From: Albula goreensis
Lineage: Eukaryota; Chordata; Actinopteri; Albuliformes; Albulidae
Length of the DNA stretch: 64,000 nt
Assembly (NCBI GenBank): GCA_022829145.1
Contig: CM040742.1
Location: 19,183,131-19,247,130, forward strand
Reading direction: 5' to 3'
The notes beneath the pieces were generated by a model. The model was not told the DNA's origin. It was given only the letters and a program-made list of their open reading frames with translations, and made no database searches. Position numbers and translations under genes: made by a program. Shown here in pieces: positions 3,001-63,087 of the stretch (position 1 is its first letter; each line of letters starts with the position of its first letter).

Positions 3001-5839
3001 AGTTGACATTTCTGGTAAATTCCAAATACTGCTGCTATTTCAGAGAGCTTAGATACCATCAATTATAATTTAAATATAGTAAAATATATAATGTCCATAT
3101 TTTAGTTGTATTTGCATGTGCATTTAGTTTCACAGCCATTTTCTATATCTATTAAAATTCCTTTGTAGATTAACTGTAGGCAAAGGCACTTGATTTAGTG
3201 ATCTCAAATGGTATTCCCTATGCATCATATGTGTTCTTTCCTCTCATTGATTTGTGGCAGTTATTCCTAAGGCATTTTCTCCACTCAAGTGATCCTGACA
3301 CTTCTGGAGCTATTGCAAGATAAAAAGAAACCTTTTTTTCTCACTGCCAAAAAACACTCCAAAGTGTACTTGCCACTTTGCTCCTCATTATGCCTGTTAT
3401 TCTGAAAAGGATTTTGGTAACGTGTGTCATGATAAAATGTACTCAGTGTCATGTTCCACCCAAAATGTATCTTCATTCTTGAATAATCACATGTAAAATG
3501 ACCACAACTGTGGTCCTGGAATGCCGCACGTGTCTCAGGTTTTTGCTCAACTTTAACAACTAGTGACATGCTTTTAAAAATTACAAGGTATTCATCATGT
3601 TATTGAAGTATGTAGTGACTATGTACTGAAGAGCATCAACAGTTAGACTCTTAATCGACCAGCTCAGATAATGACTTAGTAATGGCTTAGGCTGTCATGA
3701 AGAGCTCAGATGGACCAAAAAGCAGCAGTGTTATTAGAATTCCAGGACCAGGAGTGTTCTAGACCCTAGGCAAGTGATGGGTTAAACTGGGTCGAATGGC
3801 CCCATTCTTATAGTTACTGTATTTTGTGCTTTATTTTATGAAATTTTGGTCCAGAGCACAACTTCACGTTAGTATCTATGCTGGGTTGAATGGCCCCAAT
3901 CTTATAGTTACTTTATTTTGTGCTTTATTTTATGAAATTTTGGTCCAGAGCACAACTTCACGTCAGTATCTATGCTGGGTTGAATGGCCCCATTCTTATA
4001 GTTACTTTATTTTGTGCTTTATTTTATGAAATTTTCATCCAGAGCACAACTTCACGTTAGTATCTATGTTCCCACTTTTCGGTCCACATCAAGAGCATTT
4101 TCTCAATTCAAGTTTGACATTTTAAGGAGAGGGGTGGGGTGGGGTGGAGTGACGGGGAGCCATGGTCGCTGTGGGGAAAATGGATATGACTTGTCTTCAA
4201 ACTGGATACGACTTGTCTGCAGAGCACATGACAGGGCATGTTTTTTGGAGATCTAGATTGTGTGCAGGACTGAATTCCCCCTCCCCAAACATGCATGGAT
4301 AAAACATGCCAGTCTGTCGTTTCTTTTTCACAAAAGTGAAGAACTGCAAAGGTAACCAAAATCAAAGTGACAATTTCTCAGAAAGAGTGGCAAGCGGCAA
4401 CTGGTGATGTAGTGTTCTATAAATACCCTCCGACTGTTATTTATACTGTGCTTTCTTGCCCTAATTTCTCTGCGCATCCTGTGGCGCTGTAGTGATTGAA
4501 TTGTCAAGCAGGGGGAGCCGCAGTTAGCCTGGCATTGGCAAGGTGATTTAAAGAAGGCATAAACTAGGACATGGATTGGATTCTATGTTTTAATCCACAG
4601 GCACTGTGTGCCCACTAACTCAGAGTTATGTAAGACCCCTTCAGTGGCAAGAGGTGCAAGGCTAATTTATCCTCTCTGTGTGAAGTCACCGGAGCTGGTG
4701 GCGGGGTGGAATAGAAAGACCACATGGTTGTATTGCACATTTTCAAGGTCCTGTAATTCCTTTCTCTTCTTTGCGTTCGGTTCAAAGGAAGAAGAGAAAC
4801 AGTTTCTCTCGTATTAGGGAGGAACGTGACAGATATCAACCCATTCTGCAAGTCATTAAAATGTGGGATCAAGGTATTGCATTACTTTGTCAGCAAGCTC
4901 ACAGGTCTAAGAGGAAGTGACACATTGTGATTACAACCACGTTTCTGTCTGCAGAGCTCTTAATTAACTAGAAAACTAATATTCTTCCATGGTTCAGTGT
5001 TAACCTCATAATATTTTCTTGAGACTCTAATGATGCAGCTGCTTGCTGAAGTAGACACTAGAGTTCTCTCTCCCATGTTAATTATATTAGAAATCTTTAC
5101 CAGCCAGCTTTATCATTAACCATATCACATTATTAGCTTTATCTGAATCATGACAAAGACTTCAAAAGAATGAATTGTACAGATCTCCTCTAAAGTGGTT
5201 ACAGCACGCAGTGTCATTAAGTTGCATTATATGCACTTAGATTTGGGATACTACAGCTATCTGATAGGCGTTTACTTGAGAATCTGACGTTAGATTTTGA
5301 TTGCAAGTATAATTTGCTTAATGAAGGCCCACACAAGGGTGGGTTTTCATTAAGTAGGGAAAGGAGTCTTTGTCTGTGTTGGAGTAGGGATTTACTGAAG
5401 CAATTTCAGAAGAGATTATGGACCTCAACAATGATGTAAGGCCAACCCTGGTGCTGAGGATTGATTTCCGGCAAAAATCTTATTGGTTATCACTATAACT
5501 TTAATTCAGACAGTAATTCAATAATACAATTATGTTTTTTTTTTATTTTCCATTTCTTATCTAGTATCTTCATAGCATCTTCATATGCAGTACTAAATTT
5601 GTTGTTGGACATCATATCATTCATCAAGTACATTGTTATTCCATTGGCGGTTAATTTTGCGAATTGAACGGAATGTTTCTTAAATTTTGTATAATTTTCT
5701 TAAGTTGCATTTTTATAGCAGTGGTCACTACTGATACAGGACACCAACCCCATGCTATAGTCATGCTCTGAAACAGGATCCCAAGTGTTTGACCAGGGCT
5801 AGAAGTTCCCGAACTGAACCTATTCTCTACCACTTTCAG
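1..5839 (+). other. Intron 4 of gabrb2 (partial), non-coding
   Basis: No exon could be recognised in this stretch. I looked for the beta-subunit exon that precedes ITTTAAC (the 221-bp family exon encoding the early ligand-binding strands) and did not find it, so at least 5.8 kb of intron lies before exon 5. The sequence is AT-rich, with a 94-bp tandem triplication at 3787-4069. The open frames here are short, lack family motifs and overlap on opposite strands, as expected by chance. Confidence 0.7.
3787..4069. repeat. 94-bp tandem repeat, three copies
   Basis: Anchors TGGCCCC occur at 3797, 3891 and 3985, exactly 94 bp apart. The unit runs through TTATAGTTACT, TTTGTGCTTTATTTTATGAA and CAGAGCACAACTTCACG. 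Copies differ by only a few substitutions, so the expansion looks recent. It lies inside an intron and the frames it opens are a by-product of the repeat. Confidence 0.9.
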
Positions 5840-18844: not shown

Positions 18845-20590
<1,746 letters not shown>

Positions 20591-20835
20591 GAATCACCAC
20601 TGTGCTGACCATGACCACAATCAACACGCACTTGCGGGAGACCCTCCCCAAGATCCCCTATGTCAAAGCCATCGACATGTACCTGATGGGCTGCTTCGTT
20701 TTCGTCTTTCTGGCCCTGCTTGAGTATGCCCTGGTCAACTACATCTTCTTTGGCCGGGGGCCACAACGGCAGAAGAAGGCGGCCGAGAAGTCCGCCACTG
20801 CCAACAACGAGAAGATGAGGATGGAAGCCAACAAG
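20591..20835 (+). CDS. gabrb2: gabrb2 exon 8: TM2, TM3 and start of cytoplasmic loop
   Basis: This 245-bp exon encodes (G)[19 protein letters not shown], then [40 protein letters not shown] and [22 protein letters not shown]. The acceptor is CTTCCTTCCAG and the donor is GTATGC. It ends in phase 0. TM2 carries the 9' leucine gate and the asparagine (TTIN, residue 265 in mature mammalian numbering) that marks etomidate-sensitive beta-2/beta-3 subunits, where beta-1 has serine. The TM3 methionine (DMYLM, 286) of the same anaesthetic pocket is present. The loop start AAEK-ANNEKMR is beta-2-specific. The next coding segment is either 22904-23044 or 24362. Confidence 0.97.
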
Positions 20836-22903
20836 GTATGCCCTATGTGGCTGGAGGTACTGAGCAGTGTAGACCGTAGAGCTAAGAGCGTACTCCAGCC
20901 TCAGTCTCATTCAGTAGCAGTAGATTAATCTTGTATTTTTATTCCAATGCTAGTCTAACTATTTAGAATATTACTTATAACTGTTAGAGTACTTATGTTT
21001 AATTAATTGCTAATTATTGTGTAGTTACACCAGATGTCTCTGACTAGGAAGTGTATAGCGCCTGGAATGATCTGAAATGATACTTTGTTACTAACATTTA
21101 TTGTATGTGCATTAATGGCATTGGTAATGTGATGAGAAATATTTGTTAACTGTTTTCTAATCACCCAAAGTGCTTTTGATGTAGGTGTGTGTTAGAGTCT
21201 GCTCCTGAATGACAGAGACTCCAATGCGTAAACTGTTTTTGTATTGTGAATCGCCGTATTTCTTGTGCCTGTCTGGTCTGTTCTCATGTCTTCACTGTGA
21301 TCTCACTGTTTGACTTTTGATTTCTGTGATGCGGCCTAGGTGCACCGTAACTCACATCTTCAGCATAAATGTCAGAATAAACCAGTGTTTCAAATTGAAT
21401 GCACTCATCATTCACACATATGCTAAGCAAAAGCATTTTCCAGCCACAGCAAACACATTTTTCAGCCACCACAATATTATATTCTCATATTTCTATGTAA
21501 ATCAAGGGCCTGTGTAGACAAGGGGGAAATCATTGTCGAGAGTACGTGTTGCATCTTCAAGCTAAGTAGTAATCTGGTTTTATGTCTATTTAATTAATAT
21601 TTCTAATGTTACTTTTCCTTACTCTACCCACATCTACCTTACACAGAATCTAAATGGCTTTGCATTATAAAGCAGAAGACCAACAAAAGAAATGTGCAGC
21701 TGTGACAGTAATTCAAGAATGTTACATAGATGGGAAAGTAAAAGGTTTTTACTGTCAGAGAAAATTAGTTCAGATGATTATCACTGTTTTGTGCAGAGTG
21801 CCAAGAGCTTTCTTTGTTTTGCTGAAATTCTCCAAATCTTCTATTTTGTGTATCAGTCACAGTCTGACTTGAAAAAGAAGAAAGCTATTAATTACATACA
21901 TTATTTGAAAATTAAGGTTTTTTTGTAATGAATAGAGTAAAATATCTTAAAAGCTACCCCCTTTTTCAATCTTGCAGTAATGAGTGAGCTCCAACCATTA
22001 TTACAGATTATAGGAACTTAATAAAAGTTCATTTCGATGCAAGTAAATCTAGTTTAGACCTTGATTTCTGAACTTAATATTTTTAATGGAAGGTGTTTAA
22101 TTGAACAGAACAAACACACCACACAACAATGTCAGTCTCTCAGTCTCTGAGCTAAATTATAGGTACTATGTATGTCTTAAATGTAGTTTACTAAGCTATC
22201 CGAGGAGTCATTACATACTCATGGAGACTAAATATCGGAGGAGCAAAAGAGAGAGAATGTACAAATATTTCCTTTGATTTTTATCTATGTACACGTGAAC
22301 ATGAGGTTTGCAATATGTGCAAAACTAACGTAGAATTTGGTGAACTAATGGACCAGTGGTAGTTTCAGCTTTGAGCATTTCAGACATATTCTCATTCAAG
22401 AATTTACTTTCCCAATGCTGACACTGACTTTGCTGCATTTTTCTTCCCTCACAATTTATAGGAGCATTAGGATTCTGCACAAAAGTGTAGGCAGGGATGA
22501 GGGGGGTATGGTTTCAGGAAATTTAACTTTGGAAAAAAACTTAAGCATCTTTCACTTGGTGCAGCAGAGACCTGAAAAATCAAACAAAGCCAAGCAAAGA
22601 AAGATGTTTTAAACTGCATGCTTTCTCCGGAAAAACCTGAAGCTGTAGCGGGTCTCTCACAGGTGAGAGGCCATCTTGGAGGAATGCTTTGGGGGATTTG
22701 TATGACTCCATTTTGAGGTTGAAATCCCAAAATGGCAGCAATTCCTCAAACCCTCTCAGTTTATGTAGTGTACTGTGAACATTTTAAACATTTCCCTTTT
22801 ATTATCACGACTAAAGTGAATTCTCCATTTATTTATTTTATTTATTTCTTTATTTGGGTTACACCTACCGGCAACTGATGGTGATGATTTTGTATGCTTT
22901 CAG
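20836..22903 (+). other. Intron between exon 8 and candidate cassette exon
   Basis: About 2.1 kb of AT-rich intron. An RBFOX-type TGCATG lies at 22615-22620, about 285 nt before the cassette acceptor. A long T-rich run (TTATTTATTTTATTTATTTC region, 22826-22858) lies just upstream and could bind polypyrimidine-tract proteins. No exon resembling the mammalian 38-residue beta-2 long insert was recognised here by eye. Confidence 0.8.
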
Positions 22904-23044
22904 TGGTTGGTGGGAAATGTAGTTCAGAGAGACGATGCTCTGTATGCCAGAATGAAACAGAGGGATATTGACGCTCATGACTCGATGTGGGAACCAATCT
23001 TTGTGGAGGATGCAGCAATAGGACTAGGCGAGCAAAAGAATAAG
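22904..23044 (+). CDS. gabrb2: Candidate alternative cassette exon of gabrb2 (47 residues, TM3-TM4 loop)
   Basis: This 141-bp segment is preceded by TGTATGCTTTCAG and followed by GTACTG. It is open in exactly the frame needed to join exon 8 (phase 0) to the last exon (phase 0). It encodes WLVGNVVQRDDALYARMKQR, then DIDAHDSMWEPIFVEDAAIG and LGEQKNK, without a stop. Inclusion would lengthen the cytoplasmic loop between TM3 and TM4, which controls trafficking, clustering and phosphorylation. The peptide is hydrophilic, with nine acidic and six basic residues, two tryptophans, one tyrosine and a serine in an S-x-x-E (minimal CK2) context. Mammalian beta-2 has an alternative 38-residue insert at this junction. 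The short resemblance S-L/M-W-D/E-P suggests, weakly, that they may be related. Use of the exon is inferred, not shown. Confidence 0.72.
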
Positions 23045-24361
23045 GTACTGGATTAACAGTTGAAAGTGATGAATTACAATGCGATAAATATTCATTAATA
23101 CCCAACCAGAGCCAAATGTCTAGTTATTTTTCTCTTTTTTTGCCTTATTGGTTTACTGATTTATTTGTAACTTGAAAGTAATAGCCATCTCCATCACCAC
23201 CATTTCCTTCCCTTGTATTCCACAAGTTACAGAATGAGTCTATATCCAAGACACAAAAGTGGCAGGTTGGCAGTTGTGTCATTGTGATTATTTTCAACTG
23301 CATTTCAAGTTCTGGTGATTTCACAACACACAACTCTGAATAGTGTGGTGTGTAATGAAACTGTATTAATGTTGCTGTTATGTTTGGAATTATTTCTGAC
23401 TGAATGAAATGTATATCTCCTCAAAGACAATGCATAAACTTAAGAAAAGAAGGGGAAAGGAATAAGCTCTGCAGTTCCAGAGCAGAGAATGAAGAGGGAC
23501 AGAAAATAGGATTAGAGCATGATTATGCTGCAACTGACAGATACCAAAGACTTACCATTTTGTTGAGTAGCTTTGTGTGAGAGGCTTTACTGCAGACTAA
23601 GCTACATGATTTAAACACTTATTAGTATTGATTTAGGGAGTAACTAAGATTTATTAGACAAAGAAAACCTTTGAAGTTTTTTTTTCTTGTTGGACAATGT
23701 AAATAACAAGCATCTGTACGGATACGAAAATCCAACACCAGAACATACAGTAACATTCACCTTGTCTATGCTGCCCTATCTTCTCCTTTCATCAAAACTA
23801 CACATACTGTTACTGTTTATACAATTTCTGTGTTCTCATGTTTTTTTGTTTGTTTTTATGTTTATTTAACTGTTAGTCTGGATGCTATATAAGTGGATGA
23901 AATTTGGAATCAGTGTGGATTCCAAGGTGTGTTTTGACAAAAGAAATCAGCAATCGCATTAGTCAAATCTGTATTACAACTTTAAATACTGTGCAGACTG
24001 ACAAATGATATGCTGGCGTGCCCCTGACCTTGAAAAGCATATGTTAAGCAATATGGTTGCTCCAAGTTCTGCATTTTAATGAATCACTGTATTGAACATT
24101 AAAAAGTATGAATTCAACATTTAACCAGTTGGGAATAGGTTTCACTTAACATTGAATCTAGTATGACCATATAACTGAAGAATATGAAGAGTAGAAGCAA
24201 GGAACAGGATGAACACTTACGCATAAATTCATTAAGTCTAGCTAGGTATCAATCAGTCAGCAGGTTTTTTTTTTCAGAGAACAAAAAGCTTTTTTTAAAA
24301 AATATGTATCCTATTGCTACTGTTTATGCAACTAAGAAGCACACCCATCTGTTGCTTTTAG
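23045..24361 (+). other. Intron before the last exon of gabrb2
   Basis: About 1.3 kb of AT-rich sequence from GTACTG to GTTGCTTTTAG. The acceptor tract is TCTGTTGCTTTTAG. Nothing else was recognised in it. Confidence 0.85.
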
Positions 24362-24709
24362 ATGGATCCCCATGAAAACATCCTACTGAGTACTCTGGAG
24401 ATCAAAAATGAGATGGGGGCATCGGAGCTCACTCTGGGCCTGGGCGACCCGCGGAGTACCATGCTGGCCTACGACAGCTCCACTCTGCAGTATCGCAAGG
24501 CAGGCCTGGCCAGGCACAACTTCGGACGCAATGCGCTGGAGCGACACGTCGCGCAGAAGAAGAGCCGGCTACGGAGACGCGCCTCGCAGCTGAAAATCAC
24601 CATCCCCGACTTGACTGACGTAAACTCTATCGACAAATGGTCGAGGATGATCTTCCCCACCGTCTTCTCCTTCTTCAACATCGTCTACTGGCTCTATTAC
24701 GTCAATTAA
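24362..24709 (+). CDS. gabrb2: gabrb2 last coding exon: cytoplasmic loop and TM4
   Basis: The acceptor GCTTTTAG is followed by 115 codons and TAA at 24707-24709. The start codon-like ATG at 24362 is an internal methionine. The protein begins [18 protein letters not shown] and continues with [20 protein letters not shown], then [40 protein letters not shown] and the TM4 end [13 protein letters not shown]. The RRRAS serine corresponds to the conserved PKA/PKC phosphorylation site of beta subunits (Ser410 in beta-2). The residues before and after the GASE/LTL region vary among vertebrates. The TM4 entry [12 protein letters not shown] differs modestly from mammalian DRWSRIFFPVVF. The exon is GC-richer than its surroundings, as expected for coding sequence. 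Confidence 0.98.
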
Positions 24710-27700
24710 GAGGACAAAGTCAAAAAGGGCAAAAGAGAAAAAAAATGCCGCTCCTCTTTTTTCTGATTAATTTTACAACACAAACAAGACTTTGAATTAT
24801 TCCATCCAAACTAAAATCAGGACTGACTCCATTCGACCCTGGAACACCTTAATTGCTGGCTAACACATAAAAACCTTAGAAGTGAGAGAGAACAAAATAT
24901 TCCTGGTGCCTGTTCAAGAATTTCAGTTTGTTATCTATAGTTTACACAGTGGATCGTGTACTTGCAGTTTGTGTGCATATTTTAATGTTTTATTTTGTTG
25001 AATACAGATAATTTTGTAGCCGTGGTTGAATATAGTTAAACAATTGCAAGATGACCAATAGAATGATTTAAAGTAAATCATCCTACAAAATTAATTATAT
25101 ATGCACATATCAAACTCTGATAAATTATGTCTGTGGTTCAGAAAAAAAAATGAACACAGATGAAATTTTAGAAATCTTAGTGAAGACATTTGTCTTTATA
25201 TTGCCAAAATTTACATTTTATCTAAATGTTATGTTTGAAATCTTAAAAGAAATACATTCAAATGATATTATCTCTTCTAGTTCAGTACAATTTGTCTAAA
25301 ACATGATATCAAATATCTATTATGCTAGTCATTATTTCAATTCAAAGAAATGTTTAGATGATTTATTACCTTATGTGTTTACTTTTTCACATAGCCTTTT
25401 TTGCCAAACCCCCTGAGTTGACAGGAACAGATTGTAAAATCAGAACACTTATAAGGGCACCAAAGTGCTACGCTCTCCCCTCTGGGAACCAGTATGAAGC
25501 TAGAGAACAAACACTATTAGAATAATTGCAGGTCACATAGGGCTTTTGTAACCCAGTCAGGAAGAAGTTTTTTTCCAGATGTACTAGATGATGGTGGAAA
25601 TTACATCAAGGAAAGAAGAAACAATATGCTTAATTTCTCCAAATTCAAAATTAAAAACTAAATGAATACAATTTCATTGCATTAGTTTGAAGGCCATTTC
25701 TAAGCCACATTAAAAAAATAAATGATGTATGATTATGTAAAGTATGTTATATACATGCTGTCTTTGCAGGCTCTAGCTTTACTTGATATGAATAATCTGA
25801 AATATTTTATCTCTCAGTTGAGTGTAGGACTATAAATGTAGGGAATGAAACAGGGAATGCACTGATTTGCTTTGTGATGAAGCATCAGATTTCTTTACCG
25901 AATGACACCTGACATTGAGCCAGCAGTTAAGGCGTCTGAAATAGACATTTCACTATAAATTACCAGTCATAGCAAGCTAACACTTTCAACATTACCTTTC
26001 ACAATGGTCTGTAAATATCTCTTGTATATGATTGTTTAAAGTTATGATATGTATTTCAATTTAAGTGAGGATTCATCCAGCATATTTTTGTGTTTACATA
26101 AGGAATGGTATGTTTCTATTTAGTATTTCAGGGAGCTGGACGGGGGAGCCGAGAATGGCTAATGCCTTTTAAACGAATAAGTTCAGACGCATGTCTTTTA
26201 AAAAAAACCGTGTGTGAGAATTATAGCCACATGGAGAAAATCTGAATCATTTTCACCCTTCTTTGCCACCTCAGAATAGACACGGAGTTGGACGAAGACT
26301 CAACATCGAAAGGATTTTTAGTTTTTTGACACTCATGTTATACTGTCATCAAAAAGCAAACAGTACTCATGAGAAACTTTTCCTTCCTACATGCATCTGA
26401 GTGTCAGCACTTATATAGCTCACGTTTATGTGTCCTGCTTCCTGTTTGCAGGCGGTTATGTTTAAAAAAGCAAACTGGTCAAACTGGAGACTAGAATGCT
26501 AAAAAGCACAATGCTCTGAGTCTCGACTGGAAGAGGAACTTGAAGTTGTTTCGTTGTTTTTGAAGTTGTTGAGTTGTTTCACTGTTTTGTTTTTTTTTTA
26601 TTTTTGGTCACATTTTCTGGTCAGTATTGCATTTCATTAACATTTAAATTGAGAATTTTAACATTTTGTTGAATTTTTAGTTGTCTGAATATTTAGAGAA
26701 TATTTGCTCAAAGGTTGGCAAATCCTAGGCTCTTGTACTTTTCGGATTCCAACTAACTTCTGAAGAACCCTTTCTATGACAAATTTACTTTATATGAAAT
26801 GTCGGTAGAAATTAATTTGAAATGTTGACAAATAATAAATGTTGTACATGAGGAAATATCATAGATACATAATCACAGATTTATTCATACAAAGCAATAT
26901 TGTATTTTAGACATTTCCAGATGGGAATCAAGTACAATAGTGTAGGTGGCATCTTGGACTGCAGTTGCCATACACCAAACATTTGCACACAAAAAGTTAC
27001 AAAAGCCATAGTGCTCCAACAGCAGGCTCAAATGTTAGGCCTAAAGCAAACTGTGCCCTCAGAATGGTGACTAGCAGTGTTATAAACTAAGAGAAACTGT
27101 AATTACATGAAAAAAACTTTTATCTTTATTTTTTTTTTGAAAACTTATCAAATGCTAAAAACATAAAACAGGGATGTTAAATGCACAAAATGTAGAAAAT
27201 ATTTGACACAGTAATTTCTGCTATAATTTACTTTGTATATTCAGTGACCCTTAGACGATTGGTAACAGCTCAATGTAGAATGTCATTAAAAACATCATTA
27301 GTTATTTTCGCAAACATTAAAGCAGAGGTCAACAGTCTTTGCATGTTATTAATAAAATCAATATCACACATGATAAGCATACCTAATTACTGTTGCCATC
27401 ATCTACACAATTGAACATTTGTATACAGTTATGTCTCTCTTACGAATAACACAAGTAAATGAGGTGTGTTGTGTGTATTTATGGATTAATTTGGTGTTCA
27501 ACACTACTCCACCACTCTCAGTGGTCCTAATTATAAAAGTATCATTTTAAAAACGTCAGTATTAACAGAGACCCGACATGAAACAACATGGAAGAGTATC
27601 TAGCCAGTTTAACTCAAGTGTGTATCTAGATAAAAAACTGTGTTTGGAATCAGATTCAGTAGTTACTGACGGCACAAAAAATAAAAAAGTTTGCAATTAC

Positions 27701-46383: not shown

Positions 46384-47369
46384 TTTCAGGTGGGATTTTG
46401 GCCCATTCTTCAACACAGATGGTCTTTAAATCTTGAAGATTCCGAGGGACCCACTGGTGAATCTTGATCTTCAGTTCCTTCCACAAATTTTCTATTGGAT
46501 TTAAGTCTGGAGATTGACTAGGCCAGTCCAACACCTTTATTTTCTTCCTCTTGAGTCTCCTTTGCAGTATGTTTTGGATCGTTGTCCTGTTGGAAGATCC
46601 ACCCACGTCTCATCCTCATCATTCGGGTGGATGGCAACAGATTCTTCTCAAGAATTTCCCAGTACACGGCTCCATTCATCTTCCCTTCGATAATTTGGAT
46701 TCCACAAGCACCATGAGAAGAGAAACAGCCCCATACCATGATGATTCCTCCTCCAAACTTCACTGTAGGTATGGTATTTTTAGGATCATATGCGGGGCCA
46801 TTTCTCCTCCAAACACGACGCGTTGTATTGTTGCCAAAAAGGTTGATTTTTGTCTCGTCTGACCAGACTACATTCTCCCAGTAATCTACAGGCTTCTCCA
46901 AATGTTCTCTAGCAAACTTCAAATGAGCTTCAACATGCCTTTTCTTCAGTAATGGAGTCTTCTGGGGTGATCGTGAATGGAGGCCATGGTGGTGGAGTGC
47001 ATTGCCAATTGTTTTCTTCGTGACAACTGTACCCACTGCTTCTAGGTCTTTCTGGAGCTCAGCTCGAGTGGTCCTTGGCTCTTGGGCTACTCTTCTGACT
47101 AACTTTCTGACTGTCCGGTCAGAAATCTTGAGAGGAGCTCCTGTGCATGGTCGAGTGATGGTCGAGTGATGTTCCTTCCACTTACGTATAATGGCCCCAA
47201 TGGTACTTATAGGAACATTTAGGAGTTTAGAAATCTGTCGGTAAACAGTGCCATTACTGCACTGCTTAACAATCTTGTTGCGAAGGTCTTGGGAGAGCTC
47301 TTTGCCTCTACCCATCATGAGATGTTTCTCACAAGACTGCTTGGTGACAAATGATTCTTTTACTTCCAT
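46384..47369 (-). pseudogene. Tc1-like DD34E transposase, frameshifted and 3'-truncated
   Basis: The minus strand encodes a long open stretch from 47369 with two N-terminal helix-turn-helix regions ([12 protein letters not shown]..., [13 protein letters not shown]). A basic GAP-like region and the catalytic core follow: first Asp in WSDETKI, second Asp in [12 protein letters not shown]. After KETQ the frame is broken near 46550. The third catalytic residue (Glu in [11 protein letters not shown]) continues in another frame. The protein then runs directly into the left terminal repeat after EEWAKIPPE, so about 30 residues of the usual C-terminus are missing. No function is expected. The ATG at 47369 may be upstream of the usual MGRGKE start. 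Confidence 0.93.
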
Positions 47370-51139: not shown

Positions 51140-51445
<306 letters not shown>

Positions 51446-59233: not shown

Positions 59234-61140
59234 TCAAACAAAAATCTCTTGATTTTGCAATTGAATTGGATTTAATTTTGAATGTAAAAAGAAGTTGAAA
59301 AGCAACTTTGTTTTTGGTGTTGTAATGAACAAATGTGTTTTTTTATTGTCAATTTGATTTTTTTTTTTTTTACTTTTTTTGTGTAAACTGGCTACAATAC
59401 AAAGACAACCACCCCTTCTCCCCTGTCCAAAACAGCAGTCCCAAAATAAACAAACAACCGACTCAACTTCTTCTCGACAGACTCTACACAAATGTATATA
59501 TTAGTAACAGAAAAAGTCTTATAGATGAATCAATTGTTGCTCTATTTATGCTTGTCTTTTTAATCAATTTCAAATTTTTCATGTGTGGTTGGTAGACTAG
59601 CTCCTGGCCATTTCCTTTGCCAATTCCTTTTTTCCATTTCTGTGGCATGGCTTAATTGTGGTATAACTTTGGTAAAGGGCAAACCTCACCGTAAATGTTG
59701 GTAAACTTTTTGTGGGACATTAGTTTACCTTCCTTATTTACACTACCATTTACAAAAATACCACCAGTATCAGACACATTTTTCCAAAAAATGAACTTTC
59801 CACCTATCAGGATATTAGAATTATACCATAGGATTTGTTGTAAAATTTGTTCTGTACTTTCTGGAGGATAGAATTGGAATTGCAGCCAGTTTTGTATAGC
59901 TTCTTTCAAAAAGGGGGATGTATTAGAGAGAATATCCTCATTAAGCTATGAGTGCTGGAGGTGTTTTATCTATAGAAAGGGAAATAGACCCTTTTTGAAC
60001 ATTGGGTAGACATTTTCTGATAGTCTCCTGGAAAACCATTGTGGGTTTATAAAACGTTTTTGAATGAAGGAGGCTTTAAGTGAGAGGGTCAAGGCCCTTA
60101 GATTGAATAACTTTAGGCCACCTGATCTGTATTCATTGTAGAGATACATACATTTAACTCCATCCAGTTTACCATTCCATATAAATTTTAAGATTTTTTG
60201 CTCATATAGTTTGGAAAATGATTCACTTGGTGCAGATTATGTCATAAACAAATATGGAAATTGAGATACGACTAAGGAATAAATCAAGGTGATCTTGCCA
60301 TAAATTTTCAAATATTTCCCTCTCCATGGCTGCAGAATTTTGTCTATTTTAATGAGTTTATTATTGAAATTACCTTCTGAGAGATTACCTGTAGTTTCAG
60401 GAATGTAAATTCTGAGTATATCAACTGATCCATCCTTCCATTTTATGGGTAAATGCCATGATAAGGTGAATGCTGTATTTTTAAGAGACCCAATCCTACG
60501 TATTGTAAATTTGTCATAATTTGGTTTGATACCTGATAAATTGGAGAAATAATCAAGGTCTTGTGTTAGACTTTGCAAGAATGAACACTGGGGGGTCAAC
60601 AGGAAGCTCTTATCATCAGCATACATTGAAACCTTTGAATGTAGTCCCTTGAATTCTAACCCTTTGATTTTCACTTGACCTTACCTGTAAAACAAGTTTT
60701 TCATTTGAAATTATAAACAGATATGGTGATAAAGGACAACCTTGTTTTACCCCTCTTGATAATGAAATATTACATGAAATATGACCATTATTCATAGCTG
60801 TACATTTGAGTTTGCTTTGCATAACATTAACATTACATTACAGTCATTTAGCAGATGCTTTTATCCAAGGCGACTTATAGTGGATTGGGCTAACCAAGAG
60901 CCAATCCCCCCTGGGAACAATTTTGGGTTGGGGGCCTTGCTCAAGGGCCCAAAATGGTGTACTTGCTGTGGCTTGAACAACCTCTGGGGTGCCAGTCATA
61001 TACCTTAGCCACTAGAGAACAGGCTGCCCTCATTAACCAGTTTTATTACAGATTCACCAAAGTTGAAAACATCAGACCTAATCAAACTTAATTTGATCAT
61101 TAAAAATCATGAAATCGTTCTCTATCAGAGTTAGCATGTT
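59234..61140 (-). mobile_element. Degenerate L1-clade LINE fragment (reverse transcriptase and C-terminus)
   Basis: On the minus strand, reading from high to low coordinates, the pieces follow the order of an L1-type ORF2. First comes FNFGESVIKLVN (about 61.04-61.08 kb), interrupted by a SINE. Then come the RT motif SRGVKQGCPLSPYLF (about 60.72-60.77 kb), the YADD catalytic motif (about 60.61-60.62 kb), IYGKITLIYSLVVSQFPY, IWNGKLDGVK and GGLKLFNLRALTLSLKASFI. Near the end is CRVCREEVESVVCLFWDC, which matches the C-terminal CCHC-type motif with Cys in place of His. Frameshifts (for example near 60,675) and stops break it, so it is dead and 5'-truncated. Both edges are approximate. Confidence 0.85.
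60832..61030 (-). mobile_element. tRNA-derived SINE inserted in the LINE
   Basis: Read on the minus strand it starts GGGCAGCCTGTTCTCTAGTG with GTGGCTAAGGTA (A-box region) and GTTGTTCAAGCC (B-box region). It continues with GGGCCCTTGAGCAAGGCCCC, has the fish SINE 3' core TCGCCTTGGATAAAAGCATC and ends in GTAATGTAATG tail repeats. CATTAAC flanks it at 60825-60831 and 61031-61037 as a 7-bp target-site duplication. Removing the SINE and one copy restores a continuous LINE frame. Confidence 0.88.
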
Positions 61141-62927
61141 AGTTTTTGAAAGAGCGCTTTTCCTCAGTTCTTGCCTATCTCTGAGGTTCAGCTGTATTTA
61201 TAAAAGCGTATGAATATATTACAATATATTTTAGATACTGTAGCTATATTTTGTGAAGTCATTACTTTTCAATGTAGATTTTTCAGGTTCCACTGCATGA
61301 GAATAATTATGGGTTTTTTTCACATCTGAACTTCACACACACGGTGATTAGCAGTAGGCCTGGATTCAGGACGACGCCCCTCATTTTGTATTCATATCCT
61401 CCCCGGCTGCCTAAAACTTGCTGAGTCTGGAGTGGAGGTCATGCAGAGGTTCCTCCAGCTCCTCACTACAAGCTCCAGTAGCATGAGCAGCCATTTTGGG
61501 GAAGCTGCTGTTTCCCACTCAAATGGCTCAGTATGCTGTGTGAAACAGGTCACTAACAAGAGCTCAGTTTGCCTCCATGATGGTCTGCTGCATTTCTATG
61601 CATCTCATTAGCAGTAAAATGTCAGGAGATGTTTTCATTGTATAAGCAGAGAGTGGTGATGTAGAAGTTCACAGAACTGGTTTGGAAAAGTACCAGCCCC
61701 CTCATTTGCACACAGGAAATCACTTTTGCTGGAAGATGTACTTTTACAGCCAAAGTACTCCTCATACTAACTTGAATTTTTCTGACTTATCATTGTGCAA
61801 CACCATTTCAAACAACAGGCTATGATGTATTGCTAAAAAAAAACATTAGGAATTAAATGGGCCTTTAAATTCAGCACAAAGTCTTCAATGTTATCTTCCA
61901 ATAGAACACATCTGGTGATGTCAGCAGTCCGGTTCAAGTTTTCCCCGCACTACAGTCACAATCCTCATCCTTGGATGGAGCTTCTGTGATATTGCATTGA
62001 CAGCTTTGCTTAGGATCTTATATTTTGATCCAATTTTCCTGTGACATTTTATTTATACATTTAAAATATAGTGGTTTGCTCTTGCCAGTTTAAGCTTGTT
62101 TGATCCGAGTGCAAACAAGAGTTTCATTTTTAAGTGGGTTGACACTTTAAAAATCACCAAACAAAGAGTGACAAATGAGCAGAGCTGAACAGCTGAAATG
62201 ATCATATTGAGTTTTTTTTACACTACTTAAAGACTACTCTGTCCCCAGGACTACTGTGTCCTCAGGAGCAGACATAATGAAACCTAAGTTAAAATCTTTT
62301 GTCTGTTCTGATTCAATCACTGAAATGTATATCACCTCAAGCTGATAATGTTGCATGTCAATTGTTTGTCATATTTATCAAATTAATTAAATTTGACATA
62401 ATCAACAGCAGACAATCTATAGTTATGTTGCCAGAGGAATCATCAGAACAATGCTGACCCAACACATCTTTTTTGAATATTAAAACAGCATGTTAATAAA
62501 ATGTATTTTTCTGGACAATGAACACATATGTACATTCAATAATGCACAGATACACCAACAACACACATGCACATAAACATACATACAGTAGAAGGAACTA
62601 TGAAAATGGAACACTTAACATTCTTATTTGAAATGGAGGAAACCGCCATTAACGGGGTGCTCTGTCATTACATGATGCTCGTAGCTCAAACTGGTGAAAT
62701 GAAACCCCCGGATATGTTTAGCTTTCCCAGCACGACACTTCTCTTCATGTGGATTAGCAGCTCATCCTCACACTCATGAATAAACACTCTCATTTTCAGC
62801 GACTGCAGCTTGACCTTTTCACCAAGTGCATGGATAGCTGCGTCTTCCTGTGTCTACGTTACTCACCAGAGAAAATCTGATCACGTGCATCACTAATGCT
62901 ACAGTCAGTGAATGAGGGCCTTCAGGT
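61141..62927. other. Intergenic, no gene recognised
   Basis: AT-rich unique sequence with no visible repeats or motifs beyond a short CA-rich piece near 62.55 kb. Confidence 0.6.
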
Positions 62928-63087
62928 GCGCTACCCACCCTTTTCTCCTTCAGAAGCACTACCCATCCTTTTCTCCTTCAGGAGCTCTACCCATCCTTTT
63001 CTCCTTCAGGAGCGCTACCCATCCTTTTCTCCTTCAGGAGCTCTACCCATCCTTTTCTCCTTCAGGAGCACTTCCCATCCTTTTCTT
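62928..63087. repeat. 28-bp minisatellite, about 5.7 copies
   Basis: Unit GCTCTACCCATCCTTTTCTC plus CTTCAGGA. Starts fall at 62928, 62956, 62984, 63012, 63040 and 63068. The first copies carry ACCCACCC and CAGAAG variants. Since 28 is not a multiple of three, successive copies read in rotating frames, which produces the Ser/Phe/Pro-rich open frames seen across it. Confidence 0.95.

Follow-up and report, generated by a model that had tools for sequence, protein, structure and literature searches.

The window analysed here, that is, the whole stretch of 64,000 nucleotides from contig C2 of Albula goreensis, contains at 19–24.7 kb the gene gabrb2, whose exon 8 finds its best match in the beta-2 chains of the PDB. 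The parts of this gene that frame the present study are as follows.

19012–19164, plus strand: upstream exon stretch of gabrb2, from pre-TM1 to TM2 (a beta-subunit motif of 51 residues matched at 100% in tblastn; these are coordinates of the match and not exon borders)
20591–20835, plus strand: gabrb2 exon 8, covering TM2-TM3 and the start of the TM3-TM4 loop, ending in ...EANK, with the 3' end in phase 0 (1e-47 to PDB beta-2 chains, query taken from 20590)
24362–24709, plus strand: last exon of gabrb2, with the remaining TM3-TM4 loop, TM4 and the stop, beginning with MDPHENILL (comparison with PDB beta-2)

Exon 8 ends at 20835 with the donor AACAAG/GTATGC, the last exon follows the acceptor TTTTAG/ATGGATCCC, both of these junctions are in phase 0, and intron 8 between them is 3.5 kb long. 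The original prediction placed in this intron an open segment of 141 bases, 22904–23044, in phase 0 on both sides, and the sequence agrees with it in this respect. When exon 8, the candidate and the last exon were joined, the resulting query had its best matches in the long PDB beta-2 chains (1e-112), with beta-1 and beta-3 following behind; the score was 378.6 bits versus 374.4 for the 474-residue chain without an insert, so that the candidate contributes little to it.

Further receptor-subunit matches were found on contig C2 at 18.99, 19.07 and 19.13 Mb, on the strand opposite to gabrb2, and this layout resembles the mammalian GABRB2-A6-A1-G2 cluster. Other elements of the window include a transposase frame of the Tc1/Sleeping Beauty type downstream of gabrb2 (46518–47369, minus strand; Pfam HTH_SB 2e-22, HTH_Tnp_Tc3_2 1.5e-20) and an open frame at 60237–60680 (minus strand), which by eye looks like a part of a LINE reverse transcriptase and has no Pfam match at E<=0.01. 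Tandem repeats lie at 62919–63086 (28-bp unit, six copies), 3787–4068 (94-bp unit, three copies) and 51140–51444 (a long AC array).

Anatomy, composition and coding signals of the candidate

22875–22879, plus strand: branch-point-like pentamer CTGAT, whose A (22878) precedes the candidate by 26 bases (pattern scan; putative function)
22904–23044, plus strand: candidate cassette exon of 141 nt and 47 codons, phase 0/0, with a weak acceptor and a weak donor (frame and splice-site scan)

Frame 0 of the candidate is open and gives the translation WLVGNVVQRDDALYARMKQRDIDAHDSMWEPIFVEDAAIGLGEQKNK, and the remaining two frames have 4 and 3 stops; the flanks are TATGCTTTCAG before it and GTACTG after it. 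Among the 47 residues of the peptide there are 9 D/E and 6 K/R; YARM in it is a YxxPhi tetrapeptide, and its SMWEP contains an S-x-x-E site. Purines make up 90 of the 141 bases. The acceptor and donor had been described as good, a judgement that did not survive scoring with consensus frequencies: the value of the acceptor is 1.5, below the 3.1 of the last exon and the 8.1 of exon 8, and the donor, with its poor C at +4 and T at +5, scores -0.2 versus 4.2 for exon 8. Inside intron 8, the acceptor ranks 13th of 235 AGs and the donor 18th of 213 GTs, and the candidate is the only open phase-0 segment of 60–240 nt there with sites this good (1 on the plus strand, 0 on the minus strand). An alternative acceptor at 22928, leading to 39 residues, scored -5.7 and was rejected.

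The suggested RBFOX/PTB control was dropped as overstated: the TGCATG at 22615, upstream of the candidate, is indeed present, but it is the single one in intron 8, where about 2.6 are predicted from the density of this element in the window (47 on the plus strand, several inside TG/CA arrays), and there is no enrichment. Structured RNAs gave 0 Rfam matches at gathering scores across the window, and a Pfam search with the 78-residue open frame around the candidate gave a single match below the cut-off (12.4 bits versus 25.5, E 0.13).

Controls matched by splice sites were collected from 255 kb (strand-counted), consisting of the minus strand of the window, its plus strand downstream of the gene, and both strands of four paralogue introns and six arbitrary 10-kb stretches; the antisense of real exons is thus a part of the minus strand, and the six stretches may contain exons as well. 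Open phase-0 segments of 60–240 nt with sites at least as good as those of the candidate numbered 61, which corresponds to 0.84 expected per length of intron 8, so that splice sites and an open frame taken alone are at the level of chance. None of these 61 controls is as acidic as the candidate, none as purine-rich, two match the mammalian beta-2L insert as well, and none has any two of these three properties, acidity and purine content being mutually dependent measures. When the sites were relaxed by 1 bit, the corresponding counts among 118 controls were 1 for acidity, 0 for purines, 2 for the insert match and 0 for any two; at 2 bits they were 2, 4, 3 and 1 among 208.

Coding signals were compared with those of 2603 noncoding open windows and 112 real coding windows, which overlap, so that the counts are not independent. 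The open-window sets were formed without windows of 40 or fewer distinct trimers, and from the downstream set the final 4 kb, the AC array and the transposase stretch were also removed. A generic codon-position score, adopted after the G-first codon pattern had been noticed, reached the value of the candidate in 11 of 2603 noncoding and 64 of 112 coding windows; among the 61 site-matched controls one start reaches it, and this is the antisense of exon 8. The score is driven by G at the first position, which is too extreme for real exons, because 0 of 112 coding windows reach the first-position part.

Third positions give the opposite picture. GC3 of the candidate is 22/47 (0.47), the flanking exons having 0.77 and 0.83, and values at or above it occur in all 112 real coding windows and in 1126 of 2603 noncoding ones. 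The third-position score looks noncoding, being equalled or exceeded in 1821/2603 noncoding and 112/112 real windows, and parameter-free phase information equal to that of the candidate was found in 360 of the 2603 noncoding windows. Two models trained on the GABA-receptor exons of this genome did not call the candidate coding, and all 112 real windows equal it in both of them. In the positional model, it is equalled by 388/2603 noncoding windows (6/56 in the rest of intron 8), and in the codon model by about 750/2603 (67/342, 1/56 in the rest of intron 8, 566/1503 and 116/702). The training set consists mostly of transmembrane exons with C-rich third positions, yet the flanking exons of gabrb2 have high GC3 as well. 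It may be concluded that the match with the mammalian insert, together with acidity and purine richness, raises the candidate above chance and that the composition of third codon positions argues against it; if it is an exon, it is probably young or lightly constrained.

Comparison with the mammalian beta-2L insert and with beta paralogues

At the junction where the candidate lies, a 38-residue insert is seen in the PDB beta-2 chains with 512, 488 and 487 residues. The original prediction of an insertion at the beta-2L site that keeps the frame holds. The insert exists in two forms, labelled here as human and mouse, one of them beginning with M and having D in place of one N. The short S-hydrophobic-W-acidic-P resemblance noticed earlier also holds and extends to a longer, though weak, local match.

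22943–22996, plus strand: part of the candidate resembling the mammalian beta-2L insert, YARMKQRDIDAHDSMWEP versus a 17-residue stretch of the insert (18-column local alignment, score 28)

The common pattern is [LF]YxxPhi-KQ...S[LM]W[DE]P, and the score of 28 corresponds to shuffle p values of 0.017 and 0.021 for the two insert forms; aligned end to end, the candidate and the insert show no significant similarity (p 0.25 and 0.28). The same score against the insert is reached by 37 of the 1717 open 47-mers in the window, by 37 of 2264 AG..GT decoys and by 4% of the 625 decoys of at least 47 residues, where the plus-strand decoys exclude the gabrb2 stretch 20836–24719 and the paralogue stretches are whole, real exons included. 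Within the intron, which has 30 open AG..GT segments, the candidate gives the best match (28), tied with a shorter segment of the same donor, and an unrelated intron segment at 22252–22329 scores 27, one point below. In the joined phmmer alignment SMWEP is paired with SLWDP at modest confidence, the flanks forcing the alignment there, and phmmer with the 47 residues alone gave nothing at E<=10 in the PDB set. Both aligned cores have a YxxPhi motif, YARM in the candidate and YKDI in the mammalian insert; such a motif occurs in 33% of decoys of 40–60 residues and is weak evidence taken alone.

Like mammalian GABRB2 exon 10, which encodes the beta-2L insert, the candidate lies in the same gene at the same junction (after ...NK and before MDPHEN) in phase 0/0, the mammalian junction being derived from protein only, and both have [LF]YxxPhi-KQ and S[LM]W[DE]P. 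They differ in length (47 versus 38 residues), and their C-terminal halves are dissimilar. The 47 residues of the candidate have no R..[ST], whereas the mammalian insert has the CaMKII-type RxxT site RRTT, whose final T, counted on the 488-residue chain, is Thr365 of PMC2741204. No second genome copy of the candidate was found, while human exon 10 is reported inside a candidate LINE3 element (PMC2741204).

Five beta genes were found in the genome, each with a separate exon 8 and last exon, and only one gabrb2 was found; the further four are on C18, C23, C21 and C2 (38.09 Mb). The last exon of the C18 gene has beta-1 as its best match. The last exons of the C18 and C23 genes start identically, with VDAHGNILLTNLEI, and these two genes are a possible teleost duplicate pair. 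Tblastn of the candidate on the matching introns of these four paralogues (the intron border of the C2 38-Mb gene being approximate) gave a best E of 0.57 on the opposite strand, and no recognisable counterpart was found there. A repeat origin was also tried: in the genome of 932 Mb and 208 contigs, 751 bases around the candidate match only themselves, and the protein likewise, in a search that skips common words and would miss old diverged repeats. A search of viral_contigs and genome_contigs with the last exon confirmed no relative.

Possible nature, origin and role of the candidate

Splice variability at this junction has been described in other vertebrates. According to PMC2741204, the region of human exon 10 is a splicing hotspot in minigenes, exon 10 with its flanks is annotated as candidate LINE3, and alignment did not reveal this exon in chicken, frog and fishes, the corresponding intron being shorter than 3 kb in the fishes examined. 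An optional beta-2 exon has also been reported in chicken; it is expressed at this junction, consists of 51 nt (17 residues) with a putative PKC site, bears little resemblance to the mammalian exon and is treated in the paper as chicken exon 10. It is shorter than the candidate, the comparison being by description only. Beta-2L shows more current run-down, which depends on Thr365, and GABRB2 variants are associated with schizophrenia (both from PMC2741204). The main text of a zebrafish study with cloned gabrb2 cDNA (PMC7973766), in the passages covered, contains neither "splic" nor "insert", and among the matches listed in literature searches on the splicing of GABRB2, on gabrb2 of fishes and on strings from the peptide there was no report of the candidate exon. 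The string SMWEP gave a single match in the literature, a CaV2.3 paper.

In our opinion, the segment 22904–23044 is, with a probability of about 0.6, a weakly spliced and usually skipped exon of the TM3-TM4 loop, specific for beta-2 and representing a fish counterpart of beta-2L. The main rival, to which we give a sizeable minority of the probability, is an open segment that arose by chance between an intronic AG and GT and is never spliced. An expectation of 0.84 such segments per intron of this length, the weakness of both sites, noncoding-like third codon positions and family-trained codon scores and a peptide with no match in the PDB set are all in accordance with chance, but the combination of an acidic and purine-rich segment with a mammalian match is absent from the 61 controls, and its position coincides with a junction known as splice-variable (PMC2741204).

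If the optional exon is real, its origin may be of two kinds. An independent origin in fishes, in parallel with the chicken 51-nt exon, described as different from that of mammals, is a rather tentative choice taken by itself; the report of dissimilar chicken and mammalian exons at this junction (PMC2741204), a fish peptide mostly unlike the mammalian insert and the absence of a repeat source in the genome search agree with it, and the local match with the insert does not. This match (p about 0.02), together with the identity of gene, junction and phase and the lack of a counterpart in the other four beta introns, would fit instead a descent of the fish exon and mammalian exon 10 from one beta-2L exon of the bony-vertebrate ancestor, with YxxPhi-KQ...S-W-P as a putative conserved trafficking module and the CaMKII site added later. 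We consider such descent possible and give it about half of the probability of a real exon. Against it, the end-to-end alignment gives p values of 0.25 and 0.28, the second half of the insert including RRTT is unmatched, and PMC2741204 describes exon 10 as a candidate LINE3 stretch that alignment did not identify in chicken, frog and fishes. If the LINE3 annotation is right, mammalian exon 10 is younger than the split between fishes and mammals, and the two exons are independent in origin; if the local match results from descent, this annotation is misleading.

Under the preferred reading of an optional exon, skipping would join exon 8 to the last exon and give the beta-2S form. Its inclusion would lengthen the cytoplasmic TM3-TM4 loop by 47 residues close to its start, with the frame kept, giving a fish beta-2L form. 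The most likely effect would concern surface residence or run-down of the receptor through binding of adaptors or scaffolds, and not the affinity for GABA.

A beta-2L exon inherited from a common ancestor, if true, would overturn the notion that exon 10 is confined to mammals and a lizard and is derived from a LINE. A fish counterpart would offer an experimentally easy model of beta-2L, would tell whether splicing at this junction has been variable since ancient times and would separate a possible ancestral role in trafficking from the mammalian kinase site.
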